This document shows, piece after piece, positions 46,105-53,643 of a stretch of 53,643 nt of DNA. The translations under genes and the position numbers were made by a program. Numbering within the stretch: the stretch's first letter is position 1; each line of letters starts with the position of its first letter. The notes under the pieces are model-generated. The model was not told the origin of the DNA, did no database searches, and saw nothing but the letters and a program-made list of their open reading frames with translations. Origin of the DNA: Desulfobacteraceae bacterium. GTDB taxonomy: Bacteria; Desulfobacterota; Desulfobacteria; Desulfobacterales; RPRI01. The DNA is taken from positions 1-53,643 of the forward strand of contig JAABQB010000018.1 of assembly GCA_011391695.1 (NCBI GenBank), written 5' to 3'.

Positions 46105-47016
46105 ATGGAAAAGAAAAGAGCAGATCATAAAGAGGCTTTTAAATCAGGTTATATCGCAATAGCCGGTGCTCCGAATGTCGGGAAATCAACTCTTTTAAAC
46201 AAGATGCTCGGCTTCAAAATTTCCATTACTTCCAGAAAGCCCCAAACAACAAGAAACAGGATACTAGGAGTTGTTCACAGGGCTTCATCGCAGCTTGTCT
46301 TCATAGATACCCCAGGCATACACAAAGCAAAAAGCGCCCTGAATCTGAGAATAGTTGATACGGCCATTTCAATTATGGGAGATGTCGATATTATTCTATT
46401 GCTTGAAGATTCGACAAATGCGGCCGTAGAATCCGGTAAAATCCTGATTGAGAATCTGGAAAAAATAAAAAAACCTGTTATTCTTGCACTGAACAAGATT
46501 GATCTTGTTGATAAATCCAAATTGCCCGGCGCCATAATCGAATGGAGTTCGGTTTATAACTTTGAAGCAATTGTGCCTGTTTCGGCAAAAAGAGGGGATG
46601 GGATAGAGGATCTTCTTCGTATGCTGGAAAAGCTTCTCCCGGCTGGTCCTCCTTTTTTCCCGGAAGATACTCTTACCGATCTCCCGGAGCGCTTTATAGC
46701 AGCGGAGATGATCCGTGAAAGGGTGTTCAGGCTGACTGGCCAGGAGATTCCATATTCTGTCGCAGTGACGATCGATTCCTTTTCGGAAAAGAAAAACAAG
46801 GGAATTGTCAGAATCGGCGCTACGATTCATGTTGAACGCGACTCCCAGAAGGGAATTATAATCGGGAAAAAAGGGAGCAAGTTGAAACAGATTGGTGAAG
46901 AGGCCAGGAAGGAAATTGAACAGCTTATCGGCTCAAGAGTTTTTCTGGAACTGTTTGTGCGGGTCGATAAAGACTGGAGCAAAGAGGACAGAACCTTAAG
47001 ACAATTCGGTTACTGA
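46105..47016 (+). CDS. era: GTPase Era
   Basis: Era binds the 3' end of 16S rRNA and checks 30S maturation. The 303-residue protein has G1 GAPNVGKSTLLNKMLGFK, G2 SRKPQTTRN, G3 DTPGIH, G4 NKIDLV, and a C-terminal KH domain with GIIIGKKGSKLKQIGEEARK. ATG 46105 is preferred because the family starts shortly before GYIAIAGAPN; a TTG at 46033 would add 24 unlikely residues. The spacer upstream contains GTGGG...CCCAC, a small GC hairpin near 46070-46084. The stop overlaps the next start by one base. Confidence 0.95.
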   Translation: MEKKRADHKEAFKSGYIAIAGAPNVGKSTLLNKMLGFKISITSRKPQTTRNRILGVVHRASSQLVFIDTPGIHKAKSALNLRIVDTAISIMGDVDIILLLEDSTNAAVESGKILIENLEKIKKPVILALNKIDLVDKSKLPGAIIEWSSVYNFEAIVPVSAKRGDGIEDLLRMLEKLLPAGPPFFPEDTLTDLPERFIAAEMIRERVFRLTGQEIPYSVAVTIDSFSEKKNKGIVRIGATIHVERDSQKGIIIGKKGSKLKQIGEEARKEIEQLIGSRVFLELFVRVDKDWSKEDRTLRQFGY

Positions 47017-47819
47017 TGATTCTTTCATTTCATCCCTGTTTTACGGCGGATAAAAACATAATATGCGCGGGGCGAAAAGCCGGAAAGTCCGACCTTGAAG
47101 AGATTAGAACTGCAGACGCTGTGATTCTTCCCCAGGGGTGCCGGGAAGATTTGTATAAAATGGCAAGGGATAACTGCAGGAATGTTTTCCCCAACTATGG
47201 CGCTAGATTTAAATATCCCGGCAAAACAGGCCAGATTCTATTGTTTCAGAAAACAGAAACCGTCCATCCCGCAACCAGGATATACGCTTCAGTTTCTTCG
47301 TTACACACTCCTTTTGCATATCCCTTTGTTTTAAAATTGGACTGGGGAGGAGAAGGCGAAACAGTATATCTGATAAAGACCAAAGCCGGATTGAAAAAGG
47401 CATTTAACAAGGCTGGAGAATTTGAAAGGACAGGGCAAAAAGGCTTTATGCTGCAGGAATATATCAATTCCGGAAACCGGTCTTTGAGAGTTGCCGTGAT
47501 CGGGCAGAAATTTATCTCCTACTGGCGGGTTCAGAAAGATCCGGATGGTTTTTACTCAGGATTATCACATGGAGCGGAAATTGACTTTGATTCGGATAAA
47601 AGATTAATCAGTATTGCCGAAGAGAGAGTAAGAGCTTTTTGCGGAAAAACGGGAACAAATCTTGCCGGATTCGATCTTCTTTTTTCATCGGAGAAAGATG
47701 ATAATGAACCGCTCTTTCTTGAGATAAACTATTTTTTTGGAAGAAAAGGGCTCGGTGGTTCCGAAAAATATTACAGGATTTTAAACGGTGAAATCAAGAA
47801 ATGGCTGAAAAGCCTGTAA
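47016..47819 (+). CDS. ATP-grasp family protein (RimK-like), function unknown
   Basis: The 267-residue protein has the ATP-grasp pattern: a lysine and glycine loop in FVLKLDWGGEGETVYLI (about residues 108-124), the hinge MLQEYI, RVAVIGQKFISYWRVQ, and the metal-binding region GFDLLF...PLFLEINYFFGRKGLGG with its Glu and Asn. ATP-grasp ligases join a carboxylate to an amine or thiol through an acyl phosphate. The N-terminal 60 residues (PCFTADKNIICAGRKAGKSD) resemble the pre-ATP-grasp region. The start overlaps the era stop, suggesting co-expression with era, but the substrate is unknown. Confidence 0.85.
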   Translation: MILSFHPCFTADKNIICAGRKAGKSDLEEIRTADAVILPQGCREDLYKMARDNCRNVFPNYGARFKYPGKTGQILLFQKTETVHPATRIYASVSSLHTPFAYPFVLKLDWGGEGETVYLIKTKAGLKKAFNKAGEFERTGQKGFMLQEYINSGNRSLRVAVIGQKFISYWRVQKDPDGFYSGLSHGAEIDFDSDKRLISIAEERVRAFCGKTGTNLAGFDLLFSSEKDDNEPLFLEINYFFGRKGLGGSEKYYRILNGEIKKWLKSL

Positions 47820-47840
47820 CTTCTCAGGAGTCAGAAGTTA

Positions 47841-47890
47841 GGAGCCAGAATCCGGAATAGAAACTGGGAGGGTCTTTTCATTCTGGCTTC
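47841..47890. repeat. Imperfect inverted repeat of a dispersed AGCCAGAAT element
   Basis: GGAGCCAGAAT (47841-47851) and ATTCTGGCTTC (47880-47890) pair at ten of eleven positions around a 28-base loop. GGAGTCAGAAG just upstream (47827-47837) is a degenerate third copy, and AGTCAGAAGTCAAGAAGG at 48471-48488 is a related copy 600 bases away. No T-run follows, so this is not a clear terminator. Confidence 0.55.
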
Positions 47891-47957
47891 TGAATGCCGG
47901 CTCTTTAAGCCTTATCCTGTAATCTGAAAGAAGAAAACAAAGAAAGTAAAATAGTTT

Positions 47958-48254
47958 ATGGAACCTTACGCTTATAATCTTGAAGAAGAAGATGTAAAAA
48001 GGGAACGCAGAAAAGCCAGAGAATTGAGAGGCTCCGAATGGTGGAAGCGCAAGCTCGCGAAAGGCATATGCTATTACTGCGGCCGGGCTTTTCCCGCAAA
48101 AGAGCTTACAATGGATCACATAGTGCCGGTTGCGCGGGGCGGAAAAAGCACGAAAGGAAACATTGTAACAGCCTGCAAGGAATGCAATAACGCGAAAAAG
48201 CAGCTTTTTCCGATGGAGTGGGAAGACTACCTTTGCCAATTGCAACAGGAATAA
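47958..48254 (+). CDS. Small HNH endonuclease
   Basis: The 98-residue protein carries a complete HNH nuclease: zinc knuckle CYYCGRAFPAKE, the catalytic MDHIVPVARGGKS, the central Asn in KGNIVTACKECNNAKK, and a short tail. The first 35 residues are charged (EEEDVKRERRKARELRGSEW). No methyltransferase or terminase is nearby, so a restriction or phage-packaging role cannot be claimed. Stand-alone HNH proteins of this size are frequent in Desulfobacterota and Geobacter-like genomes. It may be a host housekeeping nuclease of unknown role. Confidence 0.92.
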   Translation: MEPYAYNLEEEDVKRERRKARELRGSEWWKRKLAKGICYYCGRAFPAKELTMDHIVPVARGGKSTKGNIVTACKECNNAKKQLFPMEWEDYLCQLQQE

Positions 48255-48309
48255 ACAGCGTTGCATAAAGCGTCGCTAATCAGCCCCGTGGTTTTTTGCG
48301 TCGGCCGAA

Positions 48310-48474
48310 TTAGCCTTGTTGGGCTACAGACTCAGACCAAGGTTTGATGCTTTTTAGCATGGGATCAATTGTGCGTTCTGCAACTTCGGTATCATAGGCA
48401 GCCTGAGCACGCAGCCAAAAACCGTTGGATAGACCAAAGAATCCTATACTGCCCCTTACCAAATTGATAAAGTC
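48310..48474 (-). pseudogene. C-terminal remnant of a HigA-type antitoxin
   Basis: The minus-strand frame ends NGFWLRAQAAYDTEVAER, TIDPMLKSIKPWSESVAQQG and a stop at 48310. The FWLRxQAAYD stretch is the conserved end of HigA/VapI antitoxins (FWLNLQAxYDL). The helix-turn-helix half is missing. Upstream of the remnant the frame runs into a dispersed repeat (48471-48488) without homology, so a repeat insertion or deletion seems to have broken the gene. No toxin partner was found. Confidence 0.6.
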
Positions 48475-48662
48475 AGAAGTCAAGAAGGAAGCAGCGATAA
48501 GTAACGGAGTCTGTGTCGCGGATCGAACCCGGTGGTTTTATGGCTCAGGCGTCTGGAAAAGAATTCGACAGAGAGTGCACAAACGCTTCTGATTCCCGTT
48601 TTCACGGGGAAAAGTTTTTCCTTATTATATAGCCGTCCTGAAATATATCACTCCTCTAAATC

Positions 48663-48690
48663 TTGACATTATTTCATATAGCATTATTTT
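48663..48690 (+). promoter_or_regulatory. Candidate promoter of the accessory island
   Basis: A perfect TTGACA (48663-48668) is followed after 16 bases by TATTTT (48685-48690) in a very AT-rich block. It would give a leader of about 195 bases before the FKBP-methyltransferase gene. The -10 box is imperfect. Confidence 0.35.
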
Positions 48691-48894
48691 TTATATAAAA
48701 ATACCGATTTATTTTTCACAACTCGATCAATCCAGTTTTACGAGAATTGTTGAGAATATATGCGATTATGAAGAATTTATATAATCAATACTGCATCGGA
48801 AAAGACTGCTAGAGATAGAAGAAGGACTCGCTGATCTGAGGACGAAAAATTTCTCATGAGAAAAACCGGACAAGAATATGGAAGGATGAATGAC

Positions 48895-50097
48895 ATGAAC
48901 ACAACAACGAAGAATTCATTAGCGGGCGTGGAATTCAGGTTTTCCTGGAACAGTGACATCGGCTCACATAAGGAGTGCAGATATGTTCAAAATGTAAATT
49001 TCTGGCGTGATATATTCCCGGAAAAATTCTACGAAAAATTGCTTAATAAAGCTCCGAAAGACGAAATTTCGCATGATTTCAGACGAGGTGAATTGGTGCC
49101 TGACTTTGATGAATCCCTTGTCTTGAAACTTAAAAGCAGCCAAATCGATAAAGATATGAACATCTCCCCGCGTTATGGAAGATACTACCCTAAGGGAATA
49201 CTCAAATGGGTTACGGGTGTGTTCAATGTGAATCGTGAACCGTTCCGATGTCTGAAATCAGACGGGAACGAAATTCATGCCGATATGAACCACCCCCTTG
49301 CCGGCCGGGACATAACGGTCGAAGCCGTAATCGATTCGGTTGAATCAAAATCATCGGAACGGGGCGGATCCTGTATGGCTTTACAAGATTTGATTCTCGA
49401 TGGCCCGGGAATGCAGGTCCGATGTAATGGCCGTCCAACGGATTTTTTTTCGGATAATTCTTTCGCGCGCGAAGATGAGTCTGATGATGGCGGATTCTAC
49501 ACGCGCCCCAGGCTTGTCAATCACCTTGATGATATGGCCATCGATGTTCTATCCGGAATGTATGGTCAATTGATTCGTCCGGCATCGAAAGTCCTCGATT
49601 TGATGAGCAGTTGGAAATCCCACCTGCCGGCGGAACTGGAACTGGATTCATTGACCGGATTGGGCATGAACCGTATTGAGTTGGATGCGAATCCGCGGTT
49701 AACCACTGGCATACTTCATGACTTGAACTCGAATCCTTCGTTGCCCTTTGGCGATGGTCAGTTCGACGCGGTGGTGTGTACGGTATCCGTGGAATACCTT
49801 GCGCAACCCATTGATGTGTTTGCCGACGTGGCCAGGGTATTAAAACCGGGCGGTTTGTTTGTCGTTTCTTTCTCGAACCGTTGGTTTCCAACCAAGGCAA
49901 TCAGAATTTGGAGAGAGTTGCATGAGTTCGAGCGCATGGGACTGGTAACGGAATACTTTCTGCAGTCCAAAAGGTTCAGCAACATTCAAACATGGTCAAT
50001 GAGTGGAAAACCGCGTCCTTATGATGACAAGTATTTCGGGTTGAACATGATGCAGTCCGATCCTGTATACATGGTGTGGGCAGCCAAAAGTGGATAA
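48895..50097 (+). CDS. SlyD-like FKBP domain fused to class I SAM methyltransferase
   Basis: The 400-residue protein has an N-terminal FKBP/SlyD-like part (about residues 50-155), recognised by NEIHADMNHPLAGRDITVEA, the standard end of SlyD/FkpB domains. After a variable linker comes a methyltransferase (about 190-395). Its motif I is VLDLMSSWKSHLP rather than the glycine-rich VLDLGCGTG, and later motifs are GLGMNRIELDANP, LPFGDGQFDAVVCTVSVEYL, VLKPGGLFVVSFSNRWFPTK. This motif-I variant belongs to a recognisable UbiE-like subgroup. ATG 48895 is chosen for GGAAGG nine bases upstream; ATGs at 48856 and 48886 are also in frame. The substrate is unknown. Confidence 0.85.
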   Translation: MNTTTKNSLAGVEFRFSWNSDIGSHKECRYVQNVNFWRDIFPEKFYEKLLNKAPKDEISHDFRRGELVPDFDESLVLKLKSSQIDKDMNISPRYGRYYPKGILKWVTGVFNVNREPFRCLKSDGNEIHADMNHPLAGRDITVEAVIDSVESKSSERGGSCMALQDLILDGPGMQVRCNGRPTDFFSDNSFAREDESDDGGFYTRPRLVNHLDDMAIDVLSGMYGQLIRPASKVLDLMSSWKSHLPAELELDSLTGLGMNRIELDANPRLTTGILHDLNSNPSLPFGDGQFDAVVCTVSVEYLAQPIDVFADVARVLKPGGLFVVSFSNRWFPTKAIRIWRELHEFERMGLVTEYFLQSKRFSNIQTWSMSGKPRPYDDKYFGLNMMQSDPVYMVWAAKSG

Positions 50098-50172
50098 AAA
50101 AAAGAGTCAAGGGAACAGATCGGAAAAATTGAAAAACGACTTCATCATACATAGTGAGAGAGGAGAGCGGAT

Positions 50173-50508
50173 ATGAAAAGACATCTTGATGAAGTGCTTG
50201 AAAGCATAGCCAAGGAATATGGTGGTAATATTCTTGACGGCTCCAGACACTATCTTGAAGTAGATATCGGAAAACGCGCGGAAGTGCTGGGCTATCCGAA
50301 GTTAAAGGAAAAGTACGGCCAGGTATATGCAATCGTGCCTTTAAAACATCCGGTAAATGGAATGAAAGTCAGAATTGATGGAAGAACATTCGTGAACTAT
50401 GCTAAGTATGATTCCGGAATTGCGGTGCCAGGTTATATTGCTGATGATGCCGTTCAGCCATATAAGCCATACATACCGAACAACAGTATGATTCTCAATT
50501 TTGCGTGA
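50173..50508 (+). CDS. Hypothetical protein, 111 residues
   Basis: I do not recognise this protein. It starts MKRHLDEVLESIAKEYGGNI after GAGAGGAGAG and looks genuinely translated. It is soluble, with an N-terminal helix, a central HYLEVDIGKRAEVLGYPKLK and KYGQVYAIVPLKHPVNGMKV, and a Pro/Tyr-rich end, PGYIADDAVQPYKPYIPNNS. No cysteines are present, so a Cys-crosslinked RiPP precursor is unlikely. It stands 75 bases after the FKBP-methyltransferase gene and 70 before the glycosyltransferase on the same strand. Confidence 0.75.
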   Translation: MKRHLDEVLESIAKEYGGNILDGSRHYLEVDIGKRAEVLGYPKLKEKYGQVYAIVPLKHPVNGMKVRIDGRTFVNYAKYDSGIAVPGYIADDAVQPYKPYIPNNSMILNFA

Positions 50509-50578
50509 TGTGGCAAATATGGTTTGATGCATGTAACTTTTTCAGTTTCTTTGGAATTGGAACATTGGAGCTTTTACA

Positions 50579-51814
50579 ATGGCTACACACAAGAAATTGA
50601 AGATTCTTCATGTGCTGGGTCAGCGTCCGGACTCGACCGGCAGCGGTATTTATCTGCAATCAATGATGCGTGAAGCGGCTAAATGCGGACATAATAATTT
50701 TATGATCGCCGGCATTCAGCCCGACAGCGACGTCGAACTACACGGTATTTCTCTGGAACAATGCCGCTTTGTCCGCTTCAACGGGAGCGACATTCCATTC
50801 CGGATCCCCGGCATGACGGATATTATGCCCTACCCAAGTACGCGGTTTGCCGATCTGTCCGCGCAGGATATCGAAAAATATGAAACGGTTTTTGCATGTG
50901 TGCTGACAGAAACGGTGGCCAGTTTCAGGCCGGATATCATCCACAGCCATCACAACTGGCTGATCAGTTCCCTGTCTCGGCGTCTTTTCCGGAATATTCC
51001 GGTGGTGACCACCTGCCACGGAACAGATCTTCGTCAATTCCATAACTGCCCTCACCTCCGCGAAAAGGTATTGAGCGGGTGCCGCCACCTGGATGCGGCC
51101 ATGGTGCTGACTGGGGCTCAGAAGGATTACATCGTGATGAACTACCGGCTGCCGCCGGAAAAAATCATTGTTACCGGTGCCGGTTACAATGATTCACTCT
51201 TCACTACCGGATCTAAGCCCTCACCACCGCCCGTTCAGCTTGTTTACGCGGGCAAACTCTTGAACGCCAAGGGGTTGCCCTGGTTGCTCAAAGCACTGAA
51301 AACAATTTCGACGCCTGAATGGCAGTTGCATATCGTGGGAGGCGGAAGCGGCAAAGAAAAGGAGGAATGCATGCGCCTGGCCCAAGACCTCGGAGAACGG
51401 GGGGTGGTGCACGGCCAGATACCGCAGGCTCGTCTGGCTGCCTTTTTTAATAAAGCCCATATTTTTGTTCTGCCGTCCTTATTTGAGGGCCTGCCGCTGG
51501 TTGTGCTTGAGGCTCTGGCCAGCGGTTGTCGAGTGGTAGCCACAGACCTGCCCGGAGTTATGGAAGTTGCGGGCAATGTAAAAGCCGATTACATCACCCT
51601 GATCAGGACACCGCGTTTGAGGAAAATGGACCAGCCCTATCCAGAGGATTTGGCTGCTTTTGAACAGAATATAGCGCAGGCCCTTAGAATACAGATTGCA
51701 AGAGCCGTCAAGCGTCCCCGGATCGACCTTTCCCTGATCGAGGACGAGTTGTCCGTCTTTACCTGGAAAGGCGTATTTGATCGAGTTCAGAAGGTCTACT
51801 TCAAAGTGATTTAA
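50579..51814 (+). CDS. GT4 family glycosyltransferase
   Basis: The 411-residue GT-B glycosyltransferase has an N-terminal acceptor domain (about 1-185; HVLGQRPDSTGSGIYLQSMM, IIHSHHNWLISSLSRRLFRN, CHGTDLRQFHNCP) and a C-terminal nucleotide-sugar domain (about 190-390; LVYAGKLLNAKGLPWLLKAL, HIVGGGSGKEKEE) with the EX7E motif in FEGLPLVVLEALASGCRVVA. Retaining sugar transfer from a nucleotide sugar is expected. GGAG lies nine bases before the ATG. GC content looks higher than in the upstream housekeeping genes. With the radical SAM gene next to it, it may modify a glycan or small natural product. Confidence 0.9.
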   Translation: MATHKKLKILHVLGQRPDSTGSGIYLQSMMREAAKCGHNNFMIAGIQPDSDVELHGISLEQCRFVRFNGSDIPFRIPGMTDIMPYPSTRFADLSAQDIEKYETVFACVLTETVASFRPDIIHSHHNWLISSLSRRLFRNIPVVTTCHGTDLRQFHNCPHLREKVLSGCRHLDAAMVLTGAQKDYIVMNYRLPPEKIIVTGAGYNDSLFTTGSKPSPPPVQLVYAGKLLNAKGLPWLLKALKTISTPEWQLHIVGGGSGKEKEECMRLAQDLGERGVVHGQIPQARLAAFFNKAHIFVLPSLFEGLPLVVLEALASGCRVVATDLPGVMEVAGNVKADYITLIRTPRLRKMDQPYPEDLAAFEQNIAQALRIQIARAVKRPRIDLSLIEDELSVFTWKGVFDRVQKVYFKVI

Positions 51815-51906
51815 CATCAGATGGCTTGTTTATCAGAGATACTCAGGCTTTGCCATCTCCAATAGCATTACGAACCAGACATACAGGGTTGAAAATATAG
51901 GACTGA

Positions 51907-52740
51907 ATGACACCGCCGCCCCGCCATCGAAATATCACGGTAAAACGCCTGTCTCTGGATTTTTACCAGTTCATCCGTTCCCAATCACTCGTGGCCGGAT
52001 GGTTCGGCCGGCAATTTAAACCAAGCCGCGAATTTGCGGAAATCGATATCACCTACAAGTGCAATTTAAAATGTATCAACTGCAACCGTTCCTGTACTCA
52101 GGCCCCCAGCGATACGGAGATGCCGGTTTCAATGATTGAGGCATTTATCCGGGAAAGTGTTGAAAAAAAAGCGCAATGGAAACGAATCCGAATCCTGGGC
52201 GGAGAACCGACCCTTCATAGCCGTATTTTTGATATTATCGCACTGCTGCAGGATTACCGGTCGGTTCATAATCCGGGTGTCAGGCTGGTACTTTGCACAA
52301 ATTATTTTGGAAAAAAAGTTCACGAAGTATTAGAGAAGCTGCCCGACGGCATTATCATTAAAAGCACGCTCAAGACATCCCGCGTGAACCTGTTCAAGCC
52401 GTTTAACATGGCGCCTGTTGATACACGGTTAAACCGGTTTTCTGATTATTCCGGCGGTTGCCGAATTATTGCGGAATGCGGTTTGGGGTTGACCCCGTCC
52501 GGATATTATATGTGTGCAATTGCCGGCGGCATAGACCGCATATTTCAGTATCATCTGGGAAGAGAAAGCCTCCCCGACCAATCAGACAACATGGCAGATC
52601 AGATGTCAGCGTTTTGCCGGTTGTGCGGACATTTTGGTTTTCAGTGGCCGGTAAGAAAGGAAAAGATGTCCCCTTCCTGGCAGAAAGCATATTTGTTTTA
52701 CAACCAGTCGCCTGGTTTCGTGTCGCACTATAACGATTGA
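51907..52740 (+). CDS. Radical SAM enzyme
   Basis: The 277-residue enzyme carries the Fe-S motif CNLKCINC (C52, C56, C59) and the SAM-binding ILGGEPTLH. C-terminal cysteines, in GGCRIIAECGLGL, GYYMCAIAGGID and FCRLCGHFG, could bind an auxiliary cluster, as in SPASM/twitch proteins. The substrate is unknown. It starts 92 bases after the glycosyltransferase with AGGA six bases upstream, and the pair looks like one unit. A GC-rich hairpin follows the stop. Confidence 0.88.
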   Translation: MTPPPRHRNITVKRLSLDFYQFIRSQSLVAGWFGRQFKPSREFAEIDITYKCNLKCINCNRSCTQAPSDTEMPVSMIEAFIRESVEKKAQWKRIRILGGEPTLHSRIFDIIALLQDYRSVHNPGVRLVLCTNYFGKKVHEVLEKLPDGIIIKSTLKTSRVNLFKPFNMAPVDTRLNRFSDYSGGCRIIAECGLGLTPSGYYMCAIAGGIDRIFQYHLGRESLPDQSDNMADQMSAFCRLCGHFGFQWPVRKEKMSPSWQKAYLFYNQSPGFVSHYND

Positions 52741-52741
52741 A

Positions 52742-52780
52742 TTCACGGGACTGCGCGGCTTTTTGCGCAGGTCCGGTGAA
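52742..52780 (+). terminator. GC-rich hairpin after the radical SAM gene
   Basis: TTCAC (52742-52746) and GTGAA (52776-52780), and CTGCGC (52751-52756) and GCGCAG (52765-52770), make an interrupted stem with a GGCTTTTT loop. There is no strong T-run, so it may act as a transcript-end stabiliser or weak terminator. The rest of 52741-53082 holds an octamer array, an imperfect CCCACAT...ATGTGCGGG hairpin (about 52938-52965) followed by ATTTTTG, and no gene. Confidence 0.5.
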
Positions 52781-52857
52781 ATGAGTTTGTATTTCTGTTC
52801 AAGGCAAGATTCCCTCCGTTGTGAACAACCGCATTTCTAATTTCTCGTAATGCATCA

Positions 52858-52893
52858 AGTTCTTAAGTTCCTGAGTTCTTAAGTTCCTGAGTT
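52858..52893. repeat. 8-bp tandem repeat, four units
   Basis: The units AGTTCTTA, AGTTCCTG, AGTTCTTA, AGTTCCTG and a final AGTT run head to tail. The eight-base period and the C(T/C)T(G/A)A core match the arrays at 19885 and 42917, but the sequence has drifted. Confidence 0.75.
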
Positions 52894-53082
52894 GACATTG
52901 TGGTGTTCTAAAAGTAGCATCAGTCTGACTATAACCCCACATCGAAATATATGCAAATGTGCGGGATTTTTGAGCTGTCTCTCGGCAGCGCCGTCAGCAA
53001 ACAGCATGTATAGCATTACGTTTCTGTCAGTCATCAGCAAATCATCCAAATAATGTTTCCATTCGGCGACAACCGAGGGTTC

Positions 53083-53643
53083 TTACGCCCGAAGCCTTCC
53101 GGATATGCAAACCCAGCCGTCCGATGTCTGCACATCAATTACTTCGAATCCCTTCAGTGTCATTTTTTCTTCAACAACACGTCTGTTTTTTTCGGTTATA
53201 CCGGAGCAGATAAGGATGCCGTTTTTTGATATGTTTTTCGAAATGTTTTCAAGCAGGTTTAAAATAACGTCGGTTAGAATGTTTGCGGCCACAATGTCAA
53301 AGCGTTCATATACGTCTTCAACAAGACTTGTAATTTTTATGTTGAATCTCTTTTCGTCGATTTTATTTAAAAGGAGGTTTTCTTTTGCGATTTGCGCAGC
53401 GACCTCATCCGTGTCTGTTCCCAGAAGCCGCACGGCTCTCAGTTTTGCCGCGGCGATCATGAGAATCCCTGAGCCGGTTCCTATATCCAGAAAAGAATCC
53501 CCCGGTTTCAAGTATTTTTCAATCATTCTCAAGCATAGAGCAGAAGTCGGGTGAGCGCCGGTTCCGAAAGCCATTCCGGGATCTATTTCAAGAATTATGT
53601 CGTTTTCACCAGGCGCATATTCCCTCCAGGTCGGTTTTACGAC
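53083..53643 (-). CDS. prmA: Ribosomal protein L11 methyltransferase, 5' end cut by window edge
   Basis: 187 codons of PrmA are visible, open to the right edge. The upstream part reads VVKPTWREYAPGENDIILEI, joined to DPGMAFGTGAHPTSALCL, the diagnostic PrmA stretch. Motif I is FLDIGTGSGILMIAAAKL, and NILTDVILNLLENISKN follows. PrmA trimethylates L11 at several residues. An internal ATG at 53574 is not the true start because homology continues upstream. The N-terminal L11-recognition domain lies beyond the window. It converges with the radical SAM gene. Confidence 0.94.
   Translation of the reverse strand, partial: VVKPTWREYAPGENDIILEIDPGMAFGTGAHPTSALCLRMIEKYLKPGDSFLDIGTGSGILMIAAAKLRAVRLLGTDTDEVAAQIAKENLLLNKIDEKRFNIKITSLVEDVYERFDIVAANILTDVILNLLENISKNISKNGILICSGITEKNRRVVEEKMTLKGFEVIDVQTSDGWVCISGRLRA

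Follow-up and report, generated by a model that had tools for sequence, protein, structure and literature searches.

The stretch of DNA analysed here (the window) is 53,643 nt of a Desulfobacteraceae contig, JAABQB010000018.1, from the genome we call G000; towards its end, at 48895-52740, the list of open reading frames (ORFs) holds four intact plus-strand genes with intergenic gaps of 75, 70 and 92 bp. MT, the first gene (48895..50097, +, 400 aa), codes for a fusion of a SlyD-like FKBP domain with an S-adenosylmethionine (SAM) methyltransferase, as read from its ORF, profile and fold matches. It is followed by a 111-residue family without known fold (U111; 50173..50508, +), a GT4 glycosyltransferase (GT4 or GT; 50579..51814, +, 411 aa) and a radical SAM protein (RS; 51907..52740, +, 277 aa). 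Here we follow these four families through related genomes, in several of which they lie beside genes tied to light damage. All four are real genes under purifying selection, because dN/dS ranges from 0.08 to 0.36 across 11 comparisons of MT, U111, GT and RS (0.17-0.22 in the three comparisons of MT), far from what chance ORFs would give.

The fusion proposed for the first gene by a first-pass annotation of this DNA stands up well. A 20-member MT-family profile matches T. thermophilus SlyD over residues 3-154 (48901..49356, +; E 1.3e-7), and an AlphaFold2 model of the protein (mean pLDDT 89) is matched by SlyD chains at TMt 0.57-0.62, so that profile and predicted structure both give the FKBP fold with inserted domain of SlyD-type proteins. 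A Methyltransf_11-type domain makes up the C-terminal part, with its core match at residues 282-324 (49738..49866, +; Pfam E 3.1e-10). Pfam detects this methyltransferase part alone, no Pfam FKBP model matching the window protein (P0001), and FKBP26_IF matches weakly in two of the 20 family members. Unlike SlyD-type prolyl isomerases and chaperones, with which it shares fold and profile match, the FKBP domain of MT is fused to a methyltransferase and carries invariant, family-specific W37 and D39; its isomerase role is putative. A second in-frame ATG lies upstream of the MT start, at 48856.

U111 was rightly described as a protein of no known family, having no Pfam or NCBIfam match; a scan of 20 members returned three Pfam families matching one member each, at E 0.03 or worse. 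Its predicted structure is compact (mean pLDDT 91) and its sequence is conserved along the whole length, the window copy (P0002) having no cysteine. Fold searches came back empty: Foldseek against the PDB gave a best E of 1.9, VIA-align gave nothing at Z 2, and the best match in a viral library had E 1.0. The glycosyltransferase carries both Glycos_transf_1 (Pfam E 6.8e-26) and Glyco_transf_4 (E 6e-13) domains, in agreement with the earlier GT4 call. It is also GC-rich, as had been noticed (52.7% vs 44.1% for the window), but recent transfer, judged from GC, was not supported by the relatives' copies: since GT of three near relatives is equally GC-rich (51.7-52.2%), the high GC is no sign of recent transfer. 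In RS, the Radical_SAM domain (Pfam E 2.2e-10) holds the Cx3Cx2C motif CNLKCINC (52060..52083, +), whose C52, C56 and C59 are invariant in 12 aligned members, as are five further cysteines, C185, C191, C203, C237 and C240 (52459..52626, +). These five fit the auxiliary Fe-S cluster already suspected, and recall SPASM/twitch radical SAM enzymes; RS differs from those enzymes in being only 277 aa long and in that no NCBIfam model, maturase models included, attains its cut-off.

The linkage of these genes was examined in 96 relatives from the same genus and order, G000 included, which were searched with each protein at thresholds of our own choosing (MT E < 1e-90, U111 E < 1e-20, GT 1e-60, RS 1e-20); the counts exclude the MT matches in G026 (a broken piece) and G064 (a fragment at a contig edge) and the match to U111 in G052, at 9e-4. 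MT was found in 34 genomes, GT in 29, U111 in 25 and RS in 12, in profiles that are almost nested: U111 is present in 12/12 RS genomes (p 8e-9) and MT in 23 of the 25 U111 genomes. Furthermore, among genomes with both partners, MT-U111 lie within 10 kb in 5/23, RS-GT in 6/8, U111-RS in 4/12, MT-GT in 4/17 and U111-GT in 4/13. At most 0.1 such genomes are expected for each pair (0.045 for RS-GT), putting all five 50- to 130-fold above expectation; the counts take in the window genome, and the expected distances were computed from genome sizes that had been rounded, without regard to contig breaks. MT and RS are this close in 1/11 genomes, solely that of the window.

At the level of single loci (numbered with an L), U111 has 69 distinct loci beyond the window, of which 25 have MT (9), GT (9) or RS (15) within 5 kb. 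The same gene order as in the window, MT-U111-GT, is seen again in L154, L155 (MT truncated) and L156. Elsewhere among the relatives, MT, U111 and RS recur together in shuffled order. Within 5 kb of the 25 distinct RS loci (window included), U111 is found in 16, in many of them directly adjacent, GT in eight and an ARMT1-like (DUF89) gene in another eight (L118, L147, L148, L150, L157, L160, L162 as a weak remnant, and L168), with zero overlap between the last two groups. In 8/8 RS-GT loci the two genes lie on the same strand, with either gene first. ARMT1-like damage-control phosphatases thus figure as an alternative neighbour of RS, although the gene is not in the window and its Pfam score falls just under the cut-off (24.0 vs 25 bits). 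Linkage of the four genes, on which the first-pass annotation had staked its proposal of a functional association, is therefore conserved in related genomes, and the U111 loci and the RS-GT pair both speak for that association. GT4 has ties with all three of the other families, strongest with RS.

As for wider distribution, a contig scan with U111 gave 60 loci whose titles all name Desulfobacterota, Deltaproteobacteria or Olavius delta symbionts, with Desulfonema magnum, Desulfosarcina widdelii and Desulfosarcina alkanivorans among the named carriers. At phylum level MT matches 67/395 genomes; in 28 of these the match begins no later than profile position 28 and so takes in most of the SlyD region, and the other 39 cover chiefly the methyltransferase part. 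RS is rare beyond the order (4/395 phylum genomes at 1e-30, three of these inside the order). Damaged family members occur as well: L155 has a partial MT, L125/L208 an RS divided between reading frames, and L174 a partial match to RS. Separately, a PP2C-like protein, named by eye, adjoins GT4 relatives in five genomes (L142, L143, L144, L145, L151).

The neighbour clusters of MT include a photolyase set that was first recognised by eye and then named with Pfam: DNA_photolyase, DPRP (FeS-photolyase), TudS+DUF1722 (RudS), NmrA-like+DUF2867, flavin amine oxidase and DUF1365, together with pyridoxamine-oxidase-like proteins and a LuxR-type regulator. Neighbour-gene profiles for six light markers were run with strict score limits over 181 stretches, window included, which vary in length and in many cases are ended by contig breaks. 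At least one marker was found in 9/33 MT loci, 12/69 U111 loci and 6/25 RS loci, compared with 0/20 control regions taken at round coordinates in MT-bearing genomes. Light genes thus lie beside MT, U111 and RS in other genomes. For example, a flavin amine-oxidase-type gene stands next to DUF1365 near U111 in 9/69 loci, and in the fullest loci, L162 and L174, RudS, photolyase, DUF2867 dehydrogenase, amine oxidase and DUF1365 surround U111 with RS or MT. GT4 is beside light genes in two loci, L218 (DPRP, RudS) and L192 (DUF1365). Among MT loci fetched outside the order, 5/19 have a light marker (L278, L279, L282, L293, L297), and in L279 and L293 MT directly adjoins photolyase.

Genome-wide searches of the 96 genomes point the same way. 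Photolyase (PF00875) was found in 23 of them, DPRP (PF04244) in 10, DUF1365 (PF07103) in 17 and catalase, the control, in 31. MT is present in 18/23 photolyase genomes (8.1 expected, p 2e-6), in 10/10 DPRP genomes (p 1e-5) and in 16/17 DUF1365 genomes (p 5e-8), compared with a chance-level 12/31 catalase genomes (11.0 expected). U111 follows with 13 photolyase, seven DPRP and 14/17 DUF1365 genomes (p 8e-8; catalase 9/31), and RS with six, four and 8/17 (p 6e-5 for DUF1365; catalase 4/31). Within the 66 best genomes, MT keeps p < 1e-3 for photolyase, DPRP and DUF1365; U111 has p 4e-6 with DUF1365 and 0.02 with both photolyase and DPRP, and RS-DUF1365 stands at p 1e-3. Physical proximity also extends to these genes, MT lying within 10 kb of photolyase in 6/18 genomes with both (0.08 expected), of DPRP in 2/10 and of DUF1365 in 3/16. 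Neither MT and catalase (0/12 genomes with both) nor GT and photolyase (0/9) come within 10 kb of each other. Oxygen stress in general was also considered and rejected, the catalase control showing no association with MT.

Comparison across genomes shows that MT, U111 and RS occur together, and that in genomes other than that of the window they are accompanied by photolyases, RudS, the DUF2867 dehydrogenase and amine-oxidase/DUF1365. We consider it probable that the four genes of the window are a relocated piece of a Desulfobacterales gene set against photo-oxidative stress (light damage), to which GT4 would belong mainly via RS and MT. Several observations weigh against this. The window genome itself, 98% complete, has no match to photolyase (PF00875), DPRP (PF04244), DUF1365 (PF07103) or catalase. 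No light marker was seen in the analysed stretches of 57/69 U111, 24/33 MT and 19/25 RS loci, nor in any of 17/17 GT-only loci and 7/8 RS-GT loci (window included; the exception is L192). GT occurs in nine photolyase, four DPRP and seven DUF1365 genomes, none of which is significant (p 0.21, 0.35 and 0.21); the 66 best genomes give no significance to RS-photolyase (p 0.15) or RS-DPRP (p 0.07); and U111 is within 10 kb of photolyase in 0/13 genomes with both. Lastly, the genomes are related and the p-values, which assume independence, are too small, and a shared habitat could yield part of the co-occurrence.

The same linkage could be read as a small biosynthetic or surface-modification pathway unrelated to light, with GT4, RS and MT tailoring one glycan, glycolipid or metabolite. 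The constant strand of the RS-GT4 pair (8/8 loci), its closeness in 6/8 genomes and the light markers in just 1/8 RS-GT loci agree with such a pathway, but MT, U111 and RS track the DUF1365 genomes, MT and U111 also the photolyase genomes, and each of the three adjoins light-set genes in other genomes. The self-contained island of the first-pass annotation is not supported; MT, U111 and RS are part of a wider set around photolyase, RudS and amine-oxidase/DUF1365, within which the RS-GT pair may have a biosynthetic role. We place a surface-polysaccharide island second because no recurring polysaccharide or export neighbours were seen among the clusters inspected, in which not all neighbours are annotated, and we hold the pathway to be rather unlikely.

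Large genomes of surface dwellers may share general stress genes or accessory genes because of their habitat, and the four families could be such genes, neighbours by chance at a variable site. That would explain why different genes stand behind the HNH gene in each of six same-genus loci and why the families are far apart in most genomes (MT-U111 within 10 kb in 5/23, for example). This is quite unlikely given five close pairs 50- to 130-fold over expectation, a catalase control without association and the recurrence of MT-U111-GT order in L154, L155 and L156. Very improbable, to our mind, is a system for ribosomally synthesised and post-translationally modified peptides (RiPPs) with U111 as substrate and RS, MT and GT4 as tailoring enzymes. 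It would account for U111 within 5 kb in 16/25 distinct RS loci, many directly adjacent, and for the auxiliary-cluster cysteines of RS; yet 44/69 U111 loci have no MT, GT or RS within 5 kb, and RS reaches the cut-off of no NCBIfam maturase model. U111 was tried as a RiPP precursor and rejected on length, predicted compactness and conservation: at 111 residues, cysteine-free in P0002, compact in its model (pLDDT 91) and conserved throughout, it is unlike a short leader with a variable core.

A light-damage gene set finds partial counterparts in known systems. RudS and DUF1365 (UfaO) have been linked to protection from light or singlet oxygen in print (PMC11417400, PMC7380195). The light-responsive Pseudomonas PhrB-LitR-RudS operon (PMC11417400) is comparable in that photolyase and TudS-DUF1722 (RudS) accompany MT, U111 or RS in several relatives; it differs in that the window contains MT, U111, GT4 and RS alone, and the available text names none of these four as an operon member. 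Its regulator is of the MerR/LitR type, whereas that on the MT side in our relatives is LuxR-type, and light control of the latter is our inference. Similarly, DUF1365 is the domain of UfaO, which is required for the furan fatty acids guarding Rhodobacter against singlet oxygen (PMC7380195), and the same paper describes UfaD as an NAD-FAD-binding desaturase (PMC7380195). The amine-oxidase-type gene beside DUF1365 near U111 recalls the Rhodobacter UfaM/UfaD/UfaO genes (PMC7380195), the amine oxidase resembling UfaD by domain and position only; the difference is that the PF07103 search found no DUF1365 in the window genome.

How such a set might work can be sketched from sequence and neighbourhood. 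In close relatives, the LuxR-type regulator divergent from MT would activate the unit under stress from light or oxidants. Proteins that are damaged or have partly lost their fold may then be held by the SlyD-like domain and modified by the methyltransferase fused to it, and RS and then GT4 could act in succession on a common sugar-containing substrate. Elsewhere an ARMT1-like damage-control phosphatase would take the place of GT4 beside RS, as a two-enzyme step, and U111 might be a small soluble partner protein. In the window genome the four genes probably run from another promoter, because the proteins look selected although the window lacks the regulator. Any specific chemistry for the gene set is doubtful. 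Equally tentative is a new photo-protection system made up of the SlyD-methyltransferase fusion, U111, RS with GT4 or the ARMT1-like phosphatase, a dedicated LuxR-type regulator and a predicted operator (an inverted repeat near TAGTTTTTACCTA); if true, it would repair light-damaged proteins or produce a novel antioxidant or sunscreen, a small glycosidic compound.

Sulfate reducers inhabit lit, oxygen-exposed surfaces of mats and sediments. Yet we found little on how they deal with light: one open-access library listed a few metagenome papers on photolyase with sulfate reducers, Desulfobacterales or Desulfosarcina, none of which by title concerns such a gene set. Should the association hold, it would suggest that an anaerobic sulfate reducer carries part of a sunlight-stress programme, and it would offer the SlyD-methyltransferase fusion, the U111 family and RS with its paired enzyme a function that can be tested.

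The regulator itself lies divergent from MT in L154, L156, L158 and L159, with a partial match in L155; tblastn of the window gave no homologue of it (best E 3.8). Of what by eye looked like a PAS-LuxR protein, Pfam confirms the LuxR (GerE) part only. Between this gene and MT is a TAGTAGTTTTTACCTACTGATA-type repeat (L074/L156, L154, L159, L075/L158), which also occurs beside the LuxR-type gene of L219. The corresponding conserved, imperfect inverted repeat (L154 3623, L156 6968, L159 3948, L158 8485, L219 13212) is a candidate operator, and exact copies of its core precede U111 in L190 and amine-oxidase genes in L209 and L212. A dyad scan with spacing 3, as in these sites, and at most one mismatch found 32 sites upstream of family genes vs 12.2 expected; spacings of 4-6 gave 15, 10 and 9 sites vs 11.1, 10.0 and 9.2. 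Without the training loci, the counts are 3 for MT, 5 for U111, 4 for RS, 4 for amine oxidase, 2 for photolyase (PHR) and 4 for GT. The repeat stays a lead because these per-family counts are small and GT, which has no other light tie, reaches p 0.045 in the same test. The repeat of the regulator-MT spacer was not seen upstream of the window MT, and within 48000-53643 the sole such dyad site, with one mismatch, is at 52043, inside the RS gene.

Upstream, the block of era, ATP-grasp and HNH genes is kept in 11/11 loci examined, and the genes after HNH differ in each of six same-genus loci (read about 0.8-1.2 kb behind HNH), in keeping with a plastic insertion site. A 509-bp junction (48255..48763, no strand assigned), the scar of the earlier reading, separates HNH from the four-gene unit; homology to the nearest MT locus, L159, starts at 48764, where a retained MT leader begins (48764..48894, +; blastn of window 48764-50434 against L159, 89%). 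Loss or transfer did happen, because MT and U111 are present in 2/10 genomes of the genus, and we conclude that a piece of the light-damage set moved to, or was left at, a plastic site. No mobility gene was recognised among the ORFs of the four-gene stretch. The minus strand of the junction has, at 48313-48537, an open stretch that looks like a weak HigA-like remnant: it is similar to the C-terminal portion of the antitoxin, its match to TIGR02607 (E 0.014) staying below the cut-off. The RimK-like ATP-grasp gene and the small orphan HNH gene that follow era in the relatives' 11/11 loci occupy 47016-48254 of the window, and in NCBIfam the HNH protein best matches Cas9d (E 5e-15) and IscB, in both cases over their HNH parts and far below the cut-offs. 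At the other end of the unit, between the RS gene and prmA, a short near-tandem repeat, TTCTTAAGTTCCTGAG, stands in two copies at 52859-52894.

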